From positions 186,001-250,000 of the forward strand of contig NZ_WOWS01000003.1 of NCBI RefSeq assembly GCF_009741275.1: a stretch of 64,000 nucleotides of DNA, given 5' to 3'. This stretch comes from Winogradskyella endarachnes (GTDB taxonomy: Bacteria; Bacteroidota; Bacteroidia; Flavobacteriales; Flavobacteriaceae). Under the pieces are notes generated by a model, which was not told the origin of the DNA, did no database searches, and worked only from the letters and a program-made list of their open reading frames with translations. This document shows positions 2,634 through 64,000 of this stretch, in pieces. A program made the position numbers and the translations under genes. Positions within the stretch are counted from its first letter, which is position 1. Each line of letters opens with the position of its first letter.

Positions 2634-3263
2634 TTGAGTATAACCGTAATTTTCTCTTTAGGCTTTATTGTTGCCTTAATTGGTGTAGTGCCACCAGGCT
2701 TACTGAATATGACAGCTGCAAGAATAAGCTTAAAAGAAGGTGCAGGTAGAGGTATTATGTTCTCTACAGGTGTTTGTATTGTAGTTTATATACAAACCTA
2801 TCTTGCGGCAATTTTTGCCAGATATTTATCGCAAAACCAAGACGTCGTTGAGATTCTGCAACGTGTTGCATTTGTTATATTCGTTTTAATTACAATCTAT
2901 TTTTTAGTTCTAGCTTCAAAACAAAAGGAGACAAAAAAGGAAACAGAAATAAAGAGTAAACACGGCCGTTTGTTACATGGCATGCTTTTGTCTGCACTAA
3001 ATGTGTTTCCTATTCCTTATCAAGCCTATATGACAATTACCTTGGTGTCTTTTGGTTTTATGAATTTTGAAAAATTGAGCATCGTTACCTATGTTACAGG
3101 TGCCGTAACAGGTACATTTGCCATGCTTTATTTTTATATTTTCTTTTTTGATAAGATAAAGGATAAAAAATTTACATCTCAAAAAAGTATGAACCTAAGT
3201 ATAGGTGTTATTACAGGTATTGTTGCACTAATTACACTCATTAACATTCTTAAAGAACTTTAA
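2634..3263 (+). CDS. LysE/RhtB-family exporter
   Basis: Predicted inner-membrane exporter of amino acids or similar small molecules, with about six hydrophobic segments in 209 residues. The N-terminal block with VVPPGLLNMTAARISLKEG is the LysE-family signature, where a Pro-Gly-(Pro) loop follows helix 1. It begins with TTG at 2634, only 2 bp after trmB, and ends 1 bp before the next ATG, so it sits in a co-transcribed trio. The substrate cannot be told from the sequence. Confidence 0.8.
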   Translation: MSITVIFSLGFIVALIGVVPPGLLNMTAARISLKEGAGRGIMFSTGVCIVVYIQTYLAAIFARYLSQNQDVVEILQRVAFVIFVLITIYFLVLASKQKETKKETEIKSKHGRLLHGMLLSALNVFPIPYQAYMTITLVSFGFMNFEKLSIVTYVTGAVTGTFAMLYFYIFFFDKIKDKKFTSQKSMNLSIGVITGIVALITLINILKEL

Positions 3264-3264
3264 G

Positions 3265-3594
3265 ATGAAGCCAGAAACATCAGGTTTTTTTGAAAAAGTT
3301 TACGATGTCGTAAGGCAAATTCCATATGGTAGAGTTACCAGTTATGGTGCAATTGCAAAATATTTAGGTGCCGCAAAAAGTGCTAGAATTGTAGGATATG
3401 CCATGAATGGTTCTCACGGAAAAAATGTACCAGCACACAGAGTGGTAAACCGAAAAGGGCTGTTAACAGGAAAACATCATTTTGAAGGAACCAACCTAAT
3501 GCAACAATTATTAGAAAACGAAGGTATTGAGGTTATAGAGAATCAAATTCAAAATTTTGAAGCCTTATATTGGGATCCTGTTAAAGAATTATAG
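3265..3594 (+). CDS. Alkyltransferase-like (ATL) protein, MGMT family
   Basis: A 109-residue protein with only the DNA-binding domain of O6-methylguanine-DNA methyltransferases. The segment QIPYGRVTSYGAIAKYLG and the loop VPAHRVV are clear, but the active-site Cys of the PCHR motif is Ala here. Proteins of this type (ATL, eATL) bind O6-alkylguanine, flip it out and hand it to nucleotide excision repair rather than removing the alkyl group. That role is known for the family and inferred here. The gene starts one base after the upstream stop and is the last of the trmB cluster. Confidence 0.85.
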   Translation: MKPETSGFFEKVYDVVRQIPYGRVTSYGAIAKYLGAAKSARIVGYAMNGSHGKNVPAHRVVNRKGLLTGKHHFEGTNLMQQLLENEGIEVIENQIQNFEALYWDPVKEL

Positions 3595-3602
3595 GCGATT
3601 TT

Positions 3603-3764
3603 TCAGCTTAATTTTGTCTCTATTACCAATCCAAATTCAACTATTGTACAATTCAATTTATCTGCTTCAAAATCTAAACTTTTAGCAGTATCTTTGTTTT
3701 TAGAATAAATCTTAATAAGAAATAATTGAGTCTAAATTCTAGCCTCCATTATTTCTGTTCTCAT
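3603..3764 (-). pseudogene. Small ORF interrupted by one in-frame TAG
   Basis: On the minus strand an ATG at 3764 opens a 54-codon frame ending in TGA at 3603-3605, broken only by TAG at 3732-3734 (codon 11). The part after the stop reads TQLFLIKIYSKNKDTAKSL and continues with a balanced, protein-like composition. I do not recognise the family. It lies in an otherwise empty 177-bp gap between convergent-looking ends, and could be a decayed small gene or chance. Its upstream end abuts the Mrp start, so any promoter region would be shared. Confidence 0.3.
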
Positions 3765-57325: not shown

Positions 57326-58255
57326 ATGAAATTAGAAAAAAACAAAATAGTATTTGCTGCGGTATTGGCTGTGATTTTCATATTTCTCATTTCCTATTCA
57401 ATGATGGTTATGGGCGATGACGAAAGTGAGAACGAAAACCTTGAACAGACCTTGGTTCCGGACTTGGATGAAAACCAAAAAGAATACGATTCCAAGCTTG
57501 ATGCTATCAATGACCTAAAGGAAGTGCGCGAGAATAACGCACCCAGCATCTACGATGAAAAACTTTTGGATTCCACAGGTCTTTACAATCCGGATTTGCC
57601 GGAACTTGAAAAAGAACGCATTGTGGATAGTATATACAATGCAGGTAAAATTCAATACTCTGACAAGAAATACAGAAACTTAGGGCAAAAGAAAGTTGTG
57701 AAAAAGAGCGCACAACAAATCGATTCAGCCGAAATAAAACGAGAACAAAAAATTCAAGCCAAAGAATTAGGATTAGAACATCAATTATTCTTTGCTGCTT
57801 CGCCAAAACCAAATGAAGTTTCAATTATTGGTAATACAGATGAAATGATATATGTGGTTGTCGATGGCGACCAGGTTGTTAAAGCAAACACTAGATTGCG
57901 GATGCGTCTTACCAAATCAGCTACTATTAATGGTAAGTTGATGCCAAAGAATACACCAGTTTTTGGTTTTATAAGCTTTCAGCCAAATCGTGCTTTAATC
58001 GAAATTGAGAACATAAAGCATCATCCTACCAAGCTAAAGGCATTCGATTTGCTCGATGGTAGCGAAGGTATCTATGTAGAAAACAATTTTAGGGCTGAAG
58101 CTACCACAGAAGTTTTGGATGATGTTATTGGTGATATCAATATTCCGACTGTTCCGCAAGTAGGTGGAATTACACAGGTATTTAGACGTCGTAATCGAAG
58201 CGTTAAAGTAACTGTGCTCAACAACTACAAATTAATTCTAAAACCAAAATTATGA
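57326..58255 (+). CDS. traM: Conjugative transposon protein TraM, VirB10-like
   Basis: 309 residues: short N-terminus, one membrane anchor (IVFAAVLAVIFIFLISYSMMVMG), a helical periplasmic stalk (residues 35-150) and a C-terminal VirB10-like beta domain (VVDGDQVVKANTRLRMRLTK; LMPKNTPVFGFISFQPNRA). VirB10 spans both membranes as the channel core. Its stop is followed by hairpin 4. Confidence 0.88.
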   Translation: MKLEKNKIVFAAVLAVIFIFLISYSMMVMGDDESENENLEQTLVPDLDENQKEYDSKLDAINDLKEVRENNAPSIYDEKLLDSTGLYNPDLPELEKERIVDSIYNAGKIQYSDKKYRNLGQKKVVKKSAQQIDSAEIKREQKIQAKELGLEHQLFFAASPKPNEVSIIGNTDEMIYVVVDGDQVVKANTRLRMRLTKSATINGKLMPKNTPVFGFISFQPNRALIEIENIKHHPTKLKAFDLLDGSEGIYVENNFRAEATTEVLDDVIGDINIPTVPQVGGITQVFRRRNRSVKVTVLNNYKLILKPKL

Positions 58256-58287: not shown

Positions 58288-59118
58288 ATGAAAAAGTATA
58301 TTATAATTTCAGCCCTCATTATTTCCGCTTTCGTGAAAGCACAAATAAACGTAACATTAGATACCATTTATGCAAACGATACTAAAAACGTTGCGCTATT
58401 TTTTCCAGAACCCATAAGACAAGGCATAACCGGTTCGGATAATTTTGTCTTTAGTTATAATCGTGAAAAAGAACAATATTTTGGATTACTTCAGGCAAAG
58501 CCCGGAAAGGAAAGTAATCTGCTGGTAGTCAATAGAAATGGTGCAATTTTTTCGTATATTGTAAGATACAAAAAGCAGCTGTCAAAGCTCAATTATTTTA
58601 TCCCATTATCAAATAGTATTGGTAATGAGAAGCCAATCGTACCCGATTCGATTCAGGTTGTAACTTCTGAAAAAAATATAGATAACAGAACCTACTATTA
58701 TCAAAAATTCTGCACCTATCTTCTTAACAGAAACCAACGTATCGGTCGGATTAAGAAGCGCACGCAGGGCATCGTCTTGACCGTTGAGAATATTGTTTTT
58801 GATAAAGAAGAACTCTATTTTGTAATCCAGATTGAGAATAATTCTACGTTGGATTACGATTTGAATTTCTTGAACCTTTCCATCGAGACTCGACAAAAAG
58901 GGAAAAGGAAATCCTTACAGAGTTTATATCAAGAACCTATTTACAAGCACCATTTGCCGTCAAAAATTGCAGAAGGTAAAATGGTAAGGTTGGTTTATGT
59001 AATGTCTAAATTCTCGTTGTCCAATGACCGTAGGGCAATTTTAGAATTGAACGAGAAAGATGGTGAACGCAATATAAAACTGAACATATCACACAGATAT
59101 ATCAATAACCCAAATTAA
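58288..59118 (+). CDS. traN: Conjugative transposon protein TraN, VirB9-like (DUF4138)
   Basis: 276 residues with a signal peptide (IIISALIISAFVKAQ) and the beta-rich DUF4138 fold (NVALFFPEPIRQGITGSDNFVFSYN; LQAKPGKESNLLVVNRNGAIFSY in part). It is the periplasmic/outer ring partner of TraM. It contains a one-mismatch copy of GCTTTCGCGAAAGC at 58327-58340. Confidence 0.87.
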   Translation: MKKYIIISALIISAFVKAQINVTLDTIYANDTKNVALFFPEPIRQGITGSDNFVFSYNREKEQYFGLLQAKPGKESNLLVVNRNGAIFSYIVRYKKQLSKLNYFIPLSNSIGNEKPIVPDSIQVVTSEKNIDNRTYYYQKFCTYLLNRNQRIGRIKKRTQGIVLTVENIVFDKEELYFVIQIENNSTLDYDLNFLNLSIETRQKGKRKSLQSLYQEPIYKHHLPSKIAEGKMVRLVYVMSKFSLSNDRRAILELNEKDGERNIKLNISHRYINNPN

Positions 59119-59491: not shown

Positions 59492-60541
59492 TTAATCTTT
59501 TAGTTCAACACTAACATAATCAAAATAGATTTTCAATTTTTTCTTTACGAAATTCAAATAATCAATTTCATCTTGGTTAGGCGGGTACTGTCCTGCAATG
59601 AACAATAATTTTGTTCTATCGTCATCGTCCTTTTGCACATATGATATAATTTGACCTAAACCCTCTCTAATGCAATCAGAGGCAAAGGCCGATGACTTTA
59701 CTTCATAGAAATGAATTTCATTTTCTAATTTAACTTTTATGTCAACATAATTTTCCTCAAGTATAACGTTGTTCTTACCGTATTTTTGTTCCAGCTGCTT
59801 CTGTAGTATTTCTTGAATTTTGTTGTGTTTTTGTTCTGCAATGTAACTGGTGCTTCCCCTTCTTTTCTGTTTAGATGAACTTCGCAATTTAGTTCCCTTT
59901 CTGTTGGTTTTTCTCTTTTTTCCGGTGTTTGTCGTTTTTCCGATATCACGACCAAATTTCTCATACAGAAAATCAGTAAATTGATATATTGATAAATGAG
60001 ATGGTTTATTGGCAATAATCAAATTCTGAATTTCAGAAGTTTTAGTTTTTCTAGTAACATTTAACCCATAATGTTCAGCAATTTTATGAAGTACGGCTTT
60101 CTTAAAAATTGGAATCAATCTTTCGTTTGAATATAGATAGGCTATTTTCCATTTTACAAAAAGAGTTAGATGTAAATCATCAATTTTTTCAAAGTCTCCC
60201 TTTTCGGAATATTCAATAATCTTTAAGATTTCAGCTTTTACGTTTTCAAATGCTTCTTTTCTATTCTCTCCATAGTAACGTTGCCAGGAATAAAGATTGT
60301 CGTTTATTAAGTTTTTTGGGTTTGCATTTGGGTCACTTCGTTTATAAATTCCAAACTTACTAGAGTTTATACCCTTAATACTTCCCAGAGCTCTAGTTTT
60401 GGTTTCCAACCATTGGCAGAATGTATCTTTATTTCCAACCGAAACATACTGTTCTATGTTCATAGATTTGATAGTCTCGATGCCCCACTTCTCAAGAAAT
60501 TCGTTGAGTATTTCCCTTGATAATTCAGTATTATTTTCCAA
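59492..60541 (-). CDS. McrB-N-like domain fused to a PD-(D/E)XK nuclease
   Basis: 349 residues. The first half (about 10-155) resembles the N-terminal domain often found in McrB-type proteins: FCQWLETKTRALGSIKGINS, SWQRYYGENRKEAF, then KWKIAYLYSNERLIPIFK. A basic linker (201-228) follows. The C-terminal domain has the PD-(D/E)XK pattern: Asp 267 in YVDIKVK, Glu 280-Val-Lys 282 in HFYEVKSS, and IREGLGQIISY as the helix after it. No GTPase domain is present, unlike McrB. A role as methylation-sensing or DNA-cutting effector is inferred from this and from its place after a methyltransferase. Confidence 0.7.
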   Translation of the reverse strand: MENNTELSREILNEFLEKWGIETIKSMNIEQYVSVGNKDTFCQWLETKTRALGSIKGINSSKFGIYKRSDPNANPKNLINDNLYSWQRYYGENRKEAFENVKAEILKIIEYSEKGDFEKIDDLHLTLFVKWKIAYLYSNERLIPIFKKAVLHKIAEHYGLNVTRKTKTSEIQNLIIANKPSHLSIYQFTDFLYEKFGRDIGKTTNTGKKRKTNRKGTKLRSSSKQKRRGSTSYIAEQKHNKIQEILQKQLEQKYGKNNVILEENYVDIKVKLENEIHFYEVKSSAFASDCIREGLGQIISYVQKDDDDRTKLLFIAGQYPPNQDEIDYLNFVKKKLKIYFDYVSVELKD

Positions 60542-60602
60542 ATGAAATTATGGTATTAGTTAAAGTCTTTTCGGAAAGTAAAAACACCTCTTTTATAAAC
60601 CT

Positions 60603-61223
60603 TTAGGCACTATTTAAAGAAGTGAAATCAAACATAAAGTGTTTTATTACCATATTGTCAGGGTGCTCTGATTCATAATAGTCCTTGTGCAGATGATTCT
60701 TCTCTTTTTCTAAAAATTCAGGCTCTCTTTTATCCTTCTTCAGAAGTTTATTTATTCCATAAACAGACTTGTGTAATTTACCTTCAACAACGTAACCTAG
60801 TAGACAACCATTATCGTATTTGCCAGATAAAAAATTATTGATTCCGGTATCTATATATCGCCGTTTTAATGTTGAACTTTTCTCTTTCAAGTTCTTTGCT
60901 TCCATATGATACACATATTCAAGTTTTGAGTTTATAACTGCAAAACTAAGGTCAATTCTGGGTAGCTTAGCAGCAAAGCCTTTTTCCTTCTTTTTGTCTT
61001 CTTTAGGAAGATGTTTCTCTACATTAGAATGAATGTTCCATTCAAGTCTAAGAGGATTATTATTAATATGTTGATGAAGCTCTGAGGTGATGTCATTTTC
61101 ATCCCAGTTGAGCTTGATGACCTTAGTTTCCATAGCTGAAACATAAGACTCTGTTATTAACTGAAAGCATCTATTTTCAAAGCTTTCGCGAAAGCTATTT
61201 CCTATATCCTTATAAAGCCCCAT
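60603..61223 (-). CDS. Predicted PD-(D/E)XK-type protein next to methyltransferase
   Basis: 206 residues, family not recognised. A nuclease-like core is visible: PRIDLSFAVINSKLEYVYHMEAKNL, with Asp 91, Glu 108 and Lys 110 in D...ExK spacing, and an acidic helix near the N-terminus (SFRESFENRCFQLITE). The gene begins 3 bp after the methyltransferase stop, so it is surely co-transcribed. It carries a perfect 16-bp palindrome AGCTTTCGCGAAAGCT (61181-61196). Could be the restriction subunit of a type II-like system. Confidence 0.65.
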   Translation of the reverse strand: MGLYKDIGNSFRESFENRCFQLITESYVSAMETKVIKLNWDENDITSELHQHINNNPLRLEWNIHSNVEKHLPKEDKKKEKGFAAKLPRIDLSFAVINSKLEYVYHMEAKNLKEKSSTLKRRYIDTGINNFLSGKYDNGCLLGYVVEGKLHKSVYGINKLLKKDKREPEFLEKEKNHLHKDYYESEHPDNMVIKHFMFDFTSLNSA

Positions 61224-61226
61224 ATA

Positions 61227-64000
61227 TCAAATGTCGTTCAGTATTTCAAGAATCAATTCTGAGGCATCTTCAATCGCCATCGACTGTGTCCAGAATCTTC
61301 TCTGATTGGGACGAATAATAAAAATATCATTACCTGTCTTATAATTCAACTTTTTTCTGAAATAGATATTTGTAGCTTTCTCAGACCATAAATGTTTATC
61401 TATACGTTGTAATTCTTGTGTAACGTCCTCTGAAGATTTTAGCAATTCATCATTGTCTTTACCGAAAGTGATTTTTGTCAACATCAATGGTGAAAATCTA
61501 TTGACCGAGAATATAGTTGCATTAGCAAACAAATTTTGACCTTTTACAAATTCATTAAGATTTTCGCATATTTTATTCGCATAATCAGTAATGTCTTCAA
61601 CAGGATATAGAGCTTTTGATTTTGCTTTTGAATGAAATAAATCTAAGCTGTAATCCAAGGAATCATTTAGTAGATTAATTTCATCAGCGTTCAACCCAAA
61701 GCTTTTGCTTACTATCTTTTCTATAGTTTCACTAAATACAGCTATCAGTTCATTTCTTTTTGTTTCCTCTCCCCAAAAACTTAGTGATTTAATTTTATTG
61801 ATGAATTCATTATTCAATTTAGAAATTTGAGATATTTCAGACTCATTTAGATTAATTGGGATTGAAAGGTATTCGTTCTTCATTATTTGTTCCCTTTCAA
61901 TTCCATATGAGGAAATCGTCATAAATAAGAAGTAGCTGCTTAATCTTGAGTTGAAATACGAGTTCAATACTCTAAGAATAGAGTCATCATTTTCGTTTGA
62001 ATAAAATCCATAAACGCCATCTCGAAAAGAACACTTGTTCTCGATTAGTGAAGAACAGATGTTGTTTTTCTCAAGACCTTTTTTCACAATAATGTGAGAG
62101 TTTACAAATGCTTTTAAATCTCCTAAACGCCTATAATGTTCTAAGTTGTCAATTTTTTCAATGTCCGAAACATTGTAAAAGTTCTTGTAAAAAGCTTTTG
62201 ATTTTGGTGTCTTTATAGATTCTCTTACATTCTTTAGCCTCTCACTTTTGGTATAAAACCTAGTAATAGCATCAGCATCTAAGTATGGTAATTCGGCTAA
62301 TAACTCCGATGTTTTTGGTTCATCTTTTTTTTGAGTTAACAATTGAAAACCAACACCAGATTTTATATTGTGTTCATTATTAAAACTTTCTATTGTATGG
62401 AACTTTTTCTGATTTAATTTTTCAATTAAATGAAAATCCATCATTCCGCCCCACATAGCAATTTTCCAAATTTTAGTATCAGTCTTTTGGCATTCCTCGC
62501 GCGGCAAAAACTTTAAATCCGAGCTATCTATACTTACACCTTCAATAACATTAGACTTTATGTAAGTTTTAGGCGCATAGTATATAATAGTTTTTGATTT
62601 TTTCTTAGGCTCGTTCTTTCTAAAAAATACTATGCTTATAGGACCTGTTGCTGAACCAAATAATTGACCGCCAAAATTTTTAGGGGCTTTCCGCAAAATT
62701 GAGAAGTTATAAATCTTCTCCACATAGCAGTCGTTGAAAAGCCATCTTCTAAAATTCTGATATGTTATTTTGGTATTTGTTAGCACTTTTGTATTGAAAA
62801 TCAATGCTATTTCCCCGTTTTCACAAAAGGTCGTTGCTTTATGCAAAAATGGTAGAACCATTTCTTTAGCGAACCCATATTTATCGCTATAATCTCGAAT
62901 AGATTGAGATAGGTTCTTAGTGCCAAAAGGCGGATTCCCCACCACCAAATCAAAATCAATTTGTTCTACTTCGGGATTTTGCTGAATAGTATCACTTCGG
63001 AATAGATTATTACCTTGTTCAACTAGAGTATCATCCAAAGGGTCATTTATCAAATATGGTAAGCGATAATCTTTGTTTTGCCAAATTGTCTTAGGGTTCA
63101 AGTTGTCAACTAAAGCCAGATAGAGACTAAATGCTGCTACTTTGATGGATTGGGGGTGTATCTCTATACCAAATATATTATCCGTGAGCAGCTCCTTTAA
63201 TTTATTAAAGTCGGTAAGCTTTTCCCGATTGGCATTTTCGTGACGTTTTACCAAACGTTTAAAACTTTCAACCAAAAAAATCCCCGAACCACACGTTGGG
63301 TCTAACACCTTAACATTAAATTTTTTTTCTGTCCTAGTGATTGCTAATTTCTCATTCAATATGAGTTCAACTAGGGAAGGTGGTGTGTAATAAGTACCAG
63401 TATCTTGCTTTAAAGTAGGATTTATTTCAGCTAAGAAATTCTCATAGATTTCACTTAACAATTCTATTTGAATAATGCTAAAATCGAAAAGGCGTAAATC
63501 TTCAAAGAGATTCTGTTGAATTGAATTGTTATTACCGATGATAAAACACTTTTTGACAATCTGTAAGTGCTCTCTAGAAATTGATTCATTCTTATCTACT
63601 GTAAAAACGTTGCCATTGAAGTATTCTTCTAATTTTTGAAAAAGAGAATACGTTTTATCAGCATCGTCCAAAATGTCAAAATAAGACTTAGCCCCTATTT
63701 TTATTTTAGAATAAAATTTTTCATCAGTTGCACCCCTGTCCTCTAAGTACAAAAGAAATAGAGAACGCATTATTATTTTATGGATAAGGTTAATTTCTAA
63801 GCCTTCTTCCTGTAATTGCTTCGCAGTATGGGTAAGACTCTCTACAAGGTATTTATCGACCCTTCGTTGAAGACTTATTTTTTTCCTTATCTCATAGGCT
63901 TCTTTCAATGTCCATATAATACCTGTATCGATGGCAATGGTAGAAAAAAGGTTTTGAAGCTGTTTGAGTTTGGTTTTATCCTTGAACTTGTAAGAAGCTA
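61227..64000 (-). CDS. Eco57I-type N6-adenine DNA methyltransferase (5' end outside window)
   Basis: At least 923 residues. The frame is open past the TTG at 63908 to the window edge (ASYKFKDKTKLKQLQNLF), so the true start is outside. In numbering from 63908, TGTYYTPPSLVELIL (170-184) precedes motif I DPTCGSGIFLVE (203-214), and motif IV is NPPFG (325-329), the gamma-type order of type IIG/type I methylases. Residues 500-720 are the likely target recognition part. The long helical front part has no visible nuclease. The partner PD-(D/E)XK gene starts 3 bp after its stop. Confidence 0.88.
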   Translation of the reverse strand, partial: ASYKFKDKTKLKQLQNLFSTIAIDTGIIWTLKEAYEIRKKISLQRRVDKYLVESLTHTAKQLQEEGLEINLIHKIIMRSLFLLYLEDRGATDEKFYSKIKIGAKSYFDILDDADKTYSLFQKLEEYFNGNVFTVDKNESISREHLQIVKKCFIIGNNNSIQQNLFEDLRLFDFSIIQIELLSEIYENFLAEINPTLKQDTGTYYTPPSLVELILNEKLAITRTEKKFNVKVLDPTCGSGIFLVESFKRLVKRHENANREKLTDFNKLKELLTDNIFGIEIHPQSIKVAAFSLYLALVDNLNPKTIWQNKDYRLPYLINDPLDDTLVEQGNNLFRSDTIQQNPEVEQIDFDLVVGNPPFGTKNLSQSIRDYSDKYGFAKEMVLPFLHKATTFCENGEIALIFNTKVLTNTKITYQNFRRWLFNDCYVEKIYNFSILRKAPKNFGGQLFGSATGPISIVFFRKNEPKKKSKTIIYYAPKTYIKSNVIEGVSIDSSDLKFLPREECQKTDTKIWKIAMWGGMMDFHLIEKLNQKKFHTIESFNNEHNIKSGVGFQLLTQKKDEPKTSELLAELPYLDADAITRFYTKSERLKNVRESIKTPKSKAFYKNFYNVSDIEKIDNLEHYRRLGDLKAFVNSHIIVKKGLEKNNICSSLIENKCSFRDGVYGFYSNENDDSILRVLNSYFNSRLSSYFLFMTISSYGIEREQIMKNEYLSIPINLNESEISQISKLNNEFINKIKSLSFWGEETKRNELIAVFSETIEKIVSKSFGLNADEINLLNDSLDYSLDLFHSKAKSKALYPVEDITDYANKICENLNEFVKGQNLFANATIFSVNRFSPLMLTKITFGKDNDELLKSSEDVTQELQRIDKHLWSEKATNIYFRKKLNYKTGNDIFIIRPNQRRFWTQSMAIEDASELILEILNDI

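Follow-up and report, generated by a model that had tools for sequence, protein, structure and literature searches.

A three-gene locus of Winogradskyella endarachnes, encoding a large adenine methyltransferase and two small proteins with nuclease signatures, raises the question of whether its products act as one composite restriction system or as separate ones. The locus lies in a stretch of 64,000 nucleotides (contig NZ_WOWS01000003.1, positions 186,001 to 250,000; hereafter the window), and its three minus-strand open reading frames (ORFs) were verified at 59492-60541, 60603-61223 and from 61227 to the window end. In the order of transcription they encode an Eco57I-type (gamma-class) N6-adenine methyltransferase (61227..64000), a 206-residue protein whose gene begins 3 base pairs (bp) further on (60603..61223) and, after 61 bp, a 349-residue protein with a TTG start (59492..60541), all in the same orientation. 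The methylase gene is cut by the window end, which leaves residues 127-1049 of 1049 inside; the full ORF on the contig (L002:7227-10376) reaches position 64376 in window numbering, with residues 1-126 lying wholly or partly outside.

The first-pass annotation of this DNA had described the three minus-strand genes, the 3-bp gap and a D91...E108-x-K110 core in the 206-residue protein, all of which were confirmed. It had left two readings side by side: a composite system joining modification-dependent sensing to restriction, or a methylase paired with a nuclease, next to a solo nuclease of a type IV-like kind. The results fit the second, and they add three points that the annotation had missed, namely a match to PD-T4-1, a seemingly decayed nuclease domain in the methylase and an exchange of its recognition domain. 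On balance, we favour the view that a split type IIG pair and a PD-T4-1-like nuclease are defence cargoes independent of each other, carried at a single insertion site of an integrative conjugative element of Bacteroidota.

The methylase and its downstream partner

Scanning with each species represented by one genome, we found 13 close relatives of the 206-residue protein, in genomes which, from their titles, we take to belong to Flavobacteriaceae. The methylase gene was located directly upstream in all 13 loci, and the genes of four distant partners (G087, G452, G474 and G514; 23-35% identity) were also found downstream of a methylase of ~1000 residues. Gene order is conserved for the methylase and the 206-residue protein (13/13); all three genes occur together in just 3 of 14 loci.

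The association was also approached from the methylase. When 296 genomes of the phylum were searched with a methylase profile at a threshold of E 1e-30, with at most two candidates scored per genome, 21 genomes contributed 26 matches, including one fragment (L103); weaker methylases would go unseen under these settings. Fourteen of the 25 non-fragment methylases show no recognizable fused nuclease motif, and in 12 of these the gene for a partner of 206-243 residues with a D...E-x-K motif comes directly 3', spaced -11 to +3 bp from the methylase gene. The two exceptions are L091, where the contig ends after 198 bp, and L088, where an inserted ORF breaks the partner region. Five of the twelve (the window, G377, G452, G474 and G514) were previously known through the partner, which makes the independent count 7/9; G452, G474 and G514, first found in this way, are themselves rows of the search profile. 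G377 (L036/L040/L082) is probably the same record as L025 and is counted among the 12, outside the 14-locus comparison.

The other 11 methylases carry a fused PDY/F...E-A-K motif (nine by pattern, and L094, missed by the pattern since it reads ADY) or start late (L096/L118, which begins inside the methylase and leaves the fused nuclease out of view). No partner was found within 900 bp 3' of any of the nine with enough downstream sequence (L118, equal to L096, included), the 3' sequence of L120 and L122 being too short for the test. Two small downstream ORFs in this search did not match the partner pattern: one of 221 residues, 7 bp past the methylase of L125, which by eye presumably resembles DUF1016, and one of 207 residues without the motif, overlapping the methylase end in L116. 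For L087, L088 and L077 the calls fall short of the full or annotated extent, and the N-termini were seen in part.

When a partner profile was run against 316 genomes, 14 matches were obtained, comprising 12 intact partners and two insertion-broken remnants, and no intact partner was found away from a methylase. The profile had been built from 11 of the 12 intact partners recovered, so that what is new is that no intact copies turned up elsewhere; the phylum samples used in this study (including those of 296, 316 and 395 genomes) overlap. The remnants (L114:87-4148 and L138:464-1908) are broken by transposase-like ORFs, one of them still beside a methylase, which suggests that the nuclease can be lost.

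The pair extends to alphaproteobacterial plasmids. In 7 of 7 such loci examined, a small gene annotated 'hypothetical protein' is located directly downstream of the methylase, and all seven products align with the motif; a partner query led to four of the loci, and the other three were selected by hand from the methylase matches (40 listed of 233). The four came from five plasmid records matched by the divergent partner of L043, whereas the plasmid search gave no match for the 206-residue protein itself or for the L041 partner. Judged by gene order and sequence, the methylase and the 206-residue protein thus form a conserved two-gene unit present in two phyla. On a Bradyrhizobium plasmid (L075:6980-11110), another gene, larger and also carrying an Eco57I-type methylase annotation, comes after the split pair.

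The partner itself matched nothing in Pfam, NCBIfam or PADLOC; ten divergent partners had no credible match in Pfam or NCBIfam, and nine of them had none in PADLOC. Its putative catalytic core, D91...E108-x-K110 (60894..60953, minus strand), is invariant in 15 homologues and in 10/10 sequences of an alignment that includes four distant homologues found by profile. In a set of 20 partners neither these three residues nor E42, Y123 and H195 vary (20/20); most of that set was chosen by a pattern requiring D...E-x-K, and the invariance is therefore partly by construction. Downstream ORFs were also listed without a motif filter, and the partner in L078, which failed the pattern (E-A-K followed by I), nevertheless aligned with the motif. 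The ratio of non-synonymous to synonymous substitution rates (dN/dS) of the gene was 0.07-0.18 in five diverged pairs with an estimable synonymous rate; altogether it was below 0.2 in 5 of 6 measurable pairs, three further pairs being saturated, and the L028/L029 value of 0.42 derives from very few changes. These features identify the 206-residue protein as a predicted PD-(D/E)XK nuclease of its own, in an unnamed family. It was matched in 3 of 295 genomes of a class-wide sample, one match being weak and partial. Relatives of either small protein were absent from the phage records and viral contigs searched, and sequence searches of the PDB returned no relevant chain for either.

A methylase with an apparently decayed front and an exchangeable recognition region

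The part of the methylase inside the window (an 893-residue ORF) matched the Pfam families N6_Mtase (1e-23) and Eco57I (5.5e-20), and its best PADLOC models were REase_MTase_IIG. The NPPF catalytic motif of the methyltransferase comprises residues 481-484 (62925..62936, minus strand), of which NPP is invariant in an eight-row alignment. Membership of MADS2 or PglX was not supported for the same in-window part, its scores of 55 of 720 and 54 of 400 bits falling far under the cut-offs; no BREX or MADS accessory genes were met around the methylase, where the scanned neighbours are conjugation genes.

According to the definition given in a review (PMC3874165), the nuclease domain and the methylase of a type IIG enzyme are permanently linked. 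In the methylases of the pair, no active N-terminal PD-(D/E)XK domain was detected: an alignment of 15 N-terminal domains contained no D, E or K column at 90% conservation, and the motif pattern was negative. Most of the 15 share instead a W-N...P...C pattern. When these domains were compared with true type IIG nuclease domains by hhalign, a segment of 48 columns, sitting just past the E-x-K of the latter, was aligned at E 1.1e-4 and a probability of 57%; three other profile comparisons gave probabilities of 0.04-0.11. As far as such comparisons can tell, the front of the methylase has the appearance of a type IIG nuclease domain that has decayed. The possibility that the 206-residue gene is the detached type IIG nuclease domain was considered and found unsupported, since profile comparison detected no similarity of the partner family to either the methylase N-terminal domain or the type IIG nuclease domain. 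The profile comparison involving the family of the 349-residue protein was negative too. The simplest history would be that a type IIG ancestor lost its joined nuclease and that a replacement came to act in trans.

The remainder of the methylase is not uniformly conserved. Among the 14 loci compared in 50-residue bins, mean pairwise identity was 84-98% over residues 1-650 and 98% over residues 1001-1049, with 46-62% between. Identity bins, an identity matrix and a nucleotide profile together delimit a target-recognition region at residues 655-1000 (61377..62414, minus strand) which occurs in three exchangeable types: a in the window, L019, L020, L027 and L031, b in L021-L026 and L028, and c in L029 and L030. 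The regions are 26-34% identical between types and 70-99% within them. The clearest case is L028 versus L029, in which the methylase core is 95%, the recognition region 27% and the nuclease 96.6% identical. At the DNA level these two loci are 98-99% identical over the first ~1100 methylase bases and 74-93% to base 1900; identity is then 43-58% at 1901-2900, 90% in the next bin and 98-100% at 3101-3700, which is the nuclease gene. For 4 of the 14 loci, the most similar nuclease is found at a locus of another recognition type.

Because recognition regions have been exchanged beside near-identical nucleases, the specificity of the nuclease is probably supplied by the methylase, and a single recognition module would serve both cutting and methylation. 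If the three types stand for different DNA sites, as they would in known type IIG enzymes, one nuclease would serve three sites and be guided to each by the methylase.

A competing explanation of the pair is an ordinary type II system, in which the 206-residue protein would independently recognize the same site as the methylase. A length of 206 residues would suffice for an independent endonuclease of this kind. A separate methylase and nuclease acting independently are, moreover, the usual type IIP layout in the accounts of PMC3936762 and PMC6158711. However, three recognition types with 26-34% identity share nucleases up to 96.6% identical, nuclease similarity departs from recognition type in four loci even though it follows it in ten, and the partner was unseen where a fused nuclease is present. 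We consider this explanation unlikely.

The 349-residue protein and the cargo site

The 349-residue protein matched the PADLOC model PD-T4-1 (PDLC04021) at E 3.5e-34, over profile positions 32-307 of 383, and had no Pfam match and no AAA domain. Three parts can be distinguished, all encoded on the minus strand. The N-terminal domain (residues ~9-196; 59954..60517), presumed to be a target sensor, had been called McrB-N-like in the first-pass annotation, and this was supported by homology in spite of the missing Pfam match: in 3 of 3 loci chosen from the matches of the class-wide sample and fetched, homologous sequence opens an AAA protein whose gene immediately precedes that of McrC. The same domain precedes a NOV_C domain in PD-T4-1 homologues, and alignment places it at the N-terminus of PD-T4-1. 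It is followed by a basic linker (residues 199-231; 59849..59947) with a predicted local distance difference test score (pLDDT) below 50, and by a C-terminal PD-(D/E)XK nuclease domain (59510..59845) recognized by alignment and in the structural model. The core D267...E280-V-K282, already proposed from the sequence, is invariant in four homologues, and dN/dS was below 0.2 in 3 of 3 pairs. No McrC was seen by eye among the ORFs neighbouring the gene.

Both halves recur in other combinations. The front domain is fused to an HNH nuclease (PF01844) in L107:8579-9604 (G526), 63 bp past a fused type IIG methylase, and this protein is also matched by the PADLOC type IV model mREase_IV. Proteins of ~540 residues with a similar C-terminal nuclease domain and a different front are encoded in L013:274-1902, L015:1444-3045 and L016:280-1905. 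The 349-residue protein was matched over some part in 11 of the 295 genomes of the class-wide sample, and the PD-T4-1 model had matches in 32 of the 395 phylum genomes sampled, with many of the matches confined to its C-terminal half.

A predicted sensor followed by a nuclease is the architecture of a single-chain modification-dependent enzyme, and the 349-residue protein is a PD-T4-1-like nuclease, probably of this kind and directed at modified phage DNA. PD-T4-1, an anti-T4 system of E. coli which we take to be a single-gene system, shares the N-terminal domain and the PD-(D/E)XK nuclease, and differs in that its three scanned homologues end in NOV_C (PF13020). Likewise, the front is that of the AAA proteins preceding McrC, but unlike in McrBC there is neither an AAA GTPase nor McrC, and the nuclease is part of the same chain. 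PD-T4-1 is tabulated among the PD-(D/E)XK systems of Vassallo et al. 2022 in a review (PMC10952713). As far as the accessible portion of the original report goes (PMC9519451), ten T4-selected systems are treated as a group and several are named, PD-T4-1 not being one of those; PD-T4 is likewise unmentioned in what could be consulted of the main text of a McrBC census (PMC11090510).

Whether the 349-residue protein cooperates with the pair, its modification-dependent sensing being joined to their restriction in a composite three-gene system, depends on how closely the genes keep together. Their common orientation, the 61-bp gap and the presence of all three in three loci are in keeping with such a system, as is the G526 gene for a front-domain protein located 63 bp past a methylase. 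The gene, however, adjoins the pair in just 3 of 14 loci (the window, L021 and L023; at L031 the view extends 380 bases past the pair), and a homologue 54% identical in protein sequence occurs in L032 without the pair. Between the window and L023 its DNA is 96-100% identical, as opposed to 67-76% for the 206-residue gene; from this difference in divergence it appears that the 349-residue gene entered or was exchanged separately. Unrelated cargo genes, moreover, occupy the same spot in L026, L028 and L029. The composite system, the other reading left by the first-pass annotation, is very improbable on this evidence, and we regard the 349-residue protein as belonging, in variant form, to a known defence family and as brought next to the pair by a mobile element.

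That element is represented by the genes flanking the cassette. On one side there are genes for a TraG-type coupling protein and a DUF5712 protein, and on the other the plus-strand genes for TraM (57326..58255; PF12508, 3.5e-40) and a DUF4138 protein (58288..59118; PF13595, 7.4e-26), all identified with Pfam. Eight of the 13 relatives have, by eye, the same conjugation genes on both sides, and for this reason the position is interpreted as a cargo site of a conjugative element. The other occupants of this site are diverse. L026 (10744-15893) carries a gene with a caspase domain, a gene with weak HSP90-like ATPase matches under the Pfam cut-off and a third, by eye apparently AlbA/schlafen-like, while in L028 (10696-11013; by Pfam) and L029 (10696-11046; by eye) a glycine-rich winged-helix protein follows the pair in the position held by the 349-residue gene in the window.

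The same setting gives some ground for regarding the pair mainly as an epigenetic module of the conjugative element, used in self-marking and element-against-element exclusion, with a nuclease aimed at competing elements and not at phages. The conjugation genes on both sides in the eight relatives, the exchange of recognition types among loci and the occurrence of the pair on alphaproteobacterial plasmids would all suit this role. It is compatible with the reading of two independent cargoes; as the main function of the pair we consider it rather unlikely, if less so than an ordinary type II system.

Relation to known systems and implications

In the mechanism proposed for the pair, the 1049-residue protein would bind a short site by its C-terminal recognition region and methylate an adenine, its N-terminal domain being a decayed nuclease domain without the conserved catalytic residues. 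The 206-residue protein, probably made by coupled translation, would then bind the methylase and cut DNA near the recognition site when this is unmethylated; the two would be expected to touch through the relic N-terminal domain of the methylase and the N-terminal helices of the nuclease. Having no specificity of its own, it would acquire a new target by a swap of the methylase recognition region alone. The 349-residue protein would act separately: its McrB-type N-terminal domain would detect some feature in the DNA of phages, most likely a modified base, and its PD-(D/E)XK domain would cut.

Several observations weigh against these proposals. The model of the 206-residue protein is of moderate confidence (pLDDT 76.8), and Foldseek searches with it found nothing below E 0.001 in the PDB or BFVD, although many of the top PDB rows are restriction enzymes or other nucleases. 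No PDB match below E 0.001 was obtained for the 349-residue model either; its highest-probability rows were Cdn1, AF2093 and Can2, which we take to be PD-(D/E)XK proteins. The top rows of both models give weak support. The NOV_C domain that ends the PD-T4-1 homologues (L044, L045 and L047) was unmatched in the 349-residue protein, and the co-occurrence of all three genes in three loci would allow for some cooperation. The link between the methylase front and type IIG nucleases consists of those 48 columns at 57% probability. Finally, the nearest nuclease is of the same recognition type in 10 of the 14 loci, and 7 of 206 nuclease residues differ between L028 and L029, so that a recognition of its own through a few residues is conceivable.

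The methylase of the pair resembles type IIG enzymes (Eco57I, BpuSI, MmeI) in being a large gamma-class adenine methylase with a C-terminal recognition region; it differs in that conserved catalytic residues are missing from its own nuclease domain, with the nuclease encoded as a small protein by a gene of its own. In type IIG enzymes the specificity of both activities changes together, as stated in a review (PMC4081073). Type III enzymes consist of a Mod methylase and a Res subunit with a helicase motor. They share with the pair a methylase with a recognition domain and a separate nuclease subunit; the methylase described here is, however, a gamma-class NPPF enzyme and not Mod, and its 206-residue partner, with no Pfam match, is too small for a helicase motor.

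The closest precedent is HVO_A0006/HVO_A0237 of Haloferax volcanii, a small protein of the PD-(D/E)XK type and a methylase that is type IIG-like but devoid of a nuclease domain, for which a split type IIG complex was offered as one possibility (PMC4389544). Their genes are separated on a single plasmid and resemble fragments of type IIG genes, and the follow-up, as reported in PMC5867850, found no contribution to methylation. In contrast, the genes of the pair described here are adjacent, under purifying selection and distributed over two phyla, and no similarity of the partner to a type IIG nuclease domain could be detected. Beyond the Haloferax case, no description of such a pair was recognized among the literature matches listed; REBASE may list such pairs.

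On the comparisons presented here, the pair is probably a new, motor-less variant of type IIG restriction. The broader proposal, that it represents a widespread and unnamed 'split type IIG' subtype in which an unrelated small PD-(D/E)XK nuclease without a specificity of its own acts in trans in place of a fused nuclease that has decayed, is in our estimation evenly poised. If true, annotation pipelines could name the 'hypothetical protein' gene beside an 'N-6 DNA methylase', as found in all seven plasmid loci. The pair would be naturally modular, a constant nuclease with an exchangeable reader, and the recognition domain could recombine freely among mobile elements with the nuclease gene untouched. 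The front domain of the 349-residue protein, found with McrB-type AAA domains, two kinds of PD-(D/E)XK nuclease and HNH, would be a general sensor module. An evolutionary model of restriction types, as set out in PMC6158711, covers fusions and losses of these parts. A split type IIG form would be the motor-less counterpart of type III, a combination missing in schemes of restriction-type evolution, and its conserved two-gene form would show how restriction types are converted into one another.

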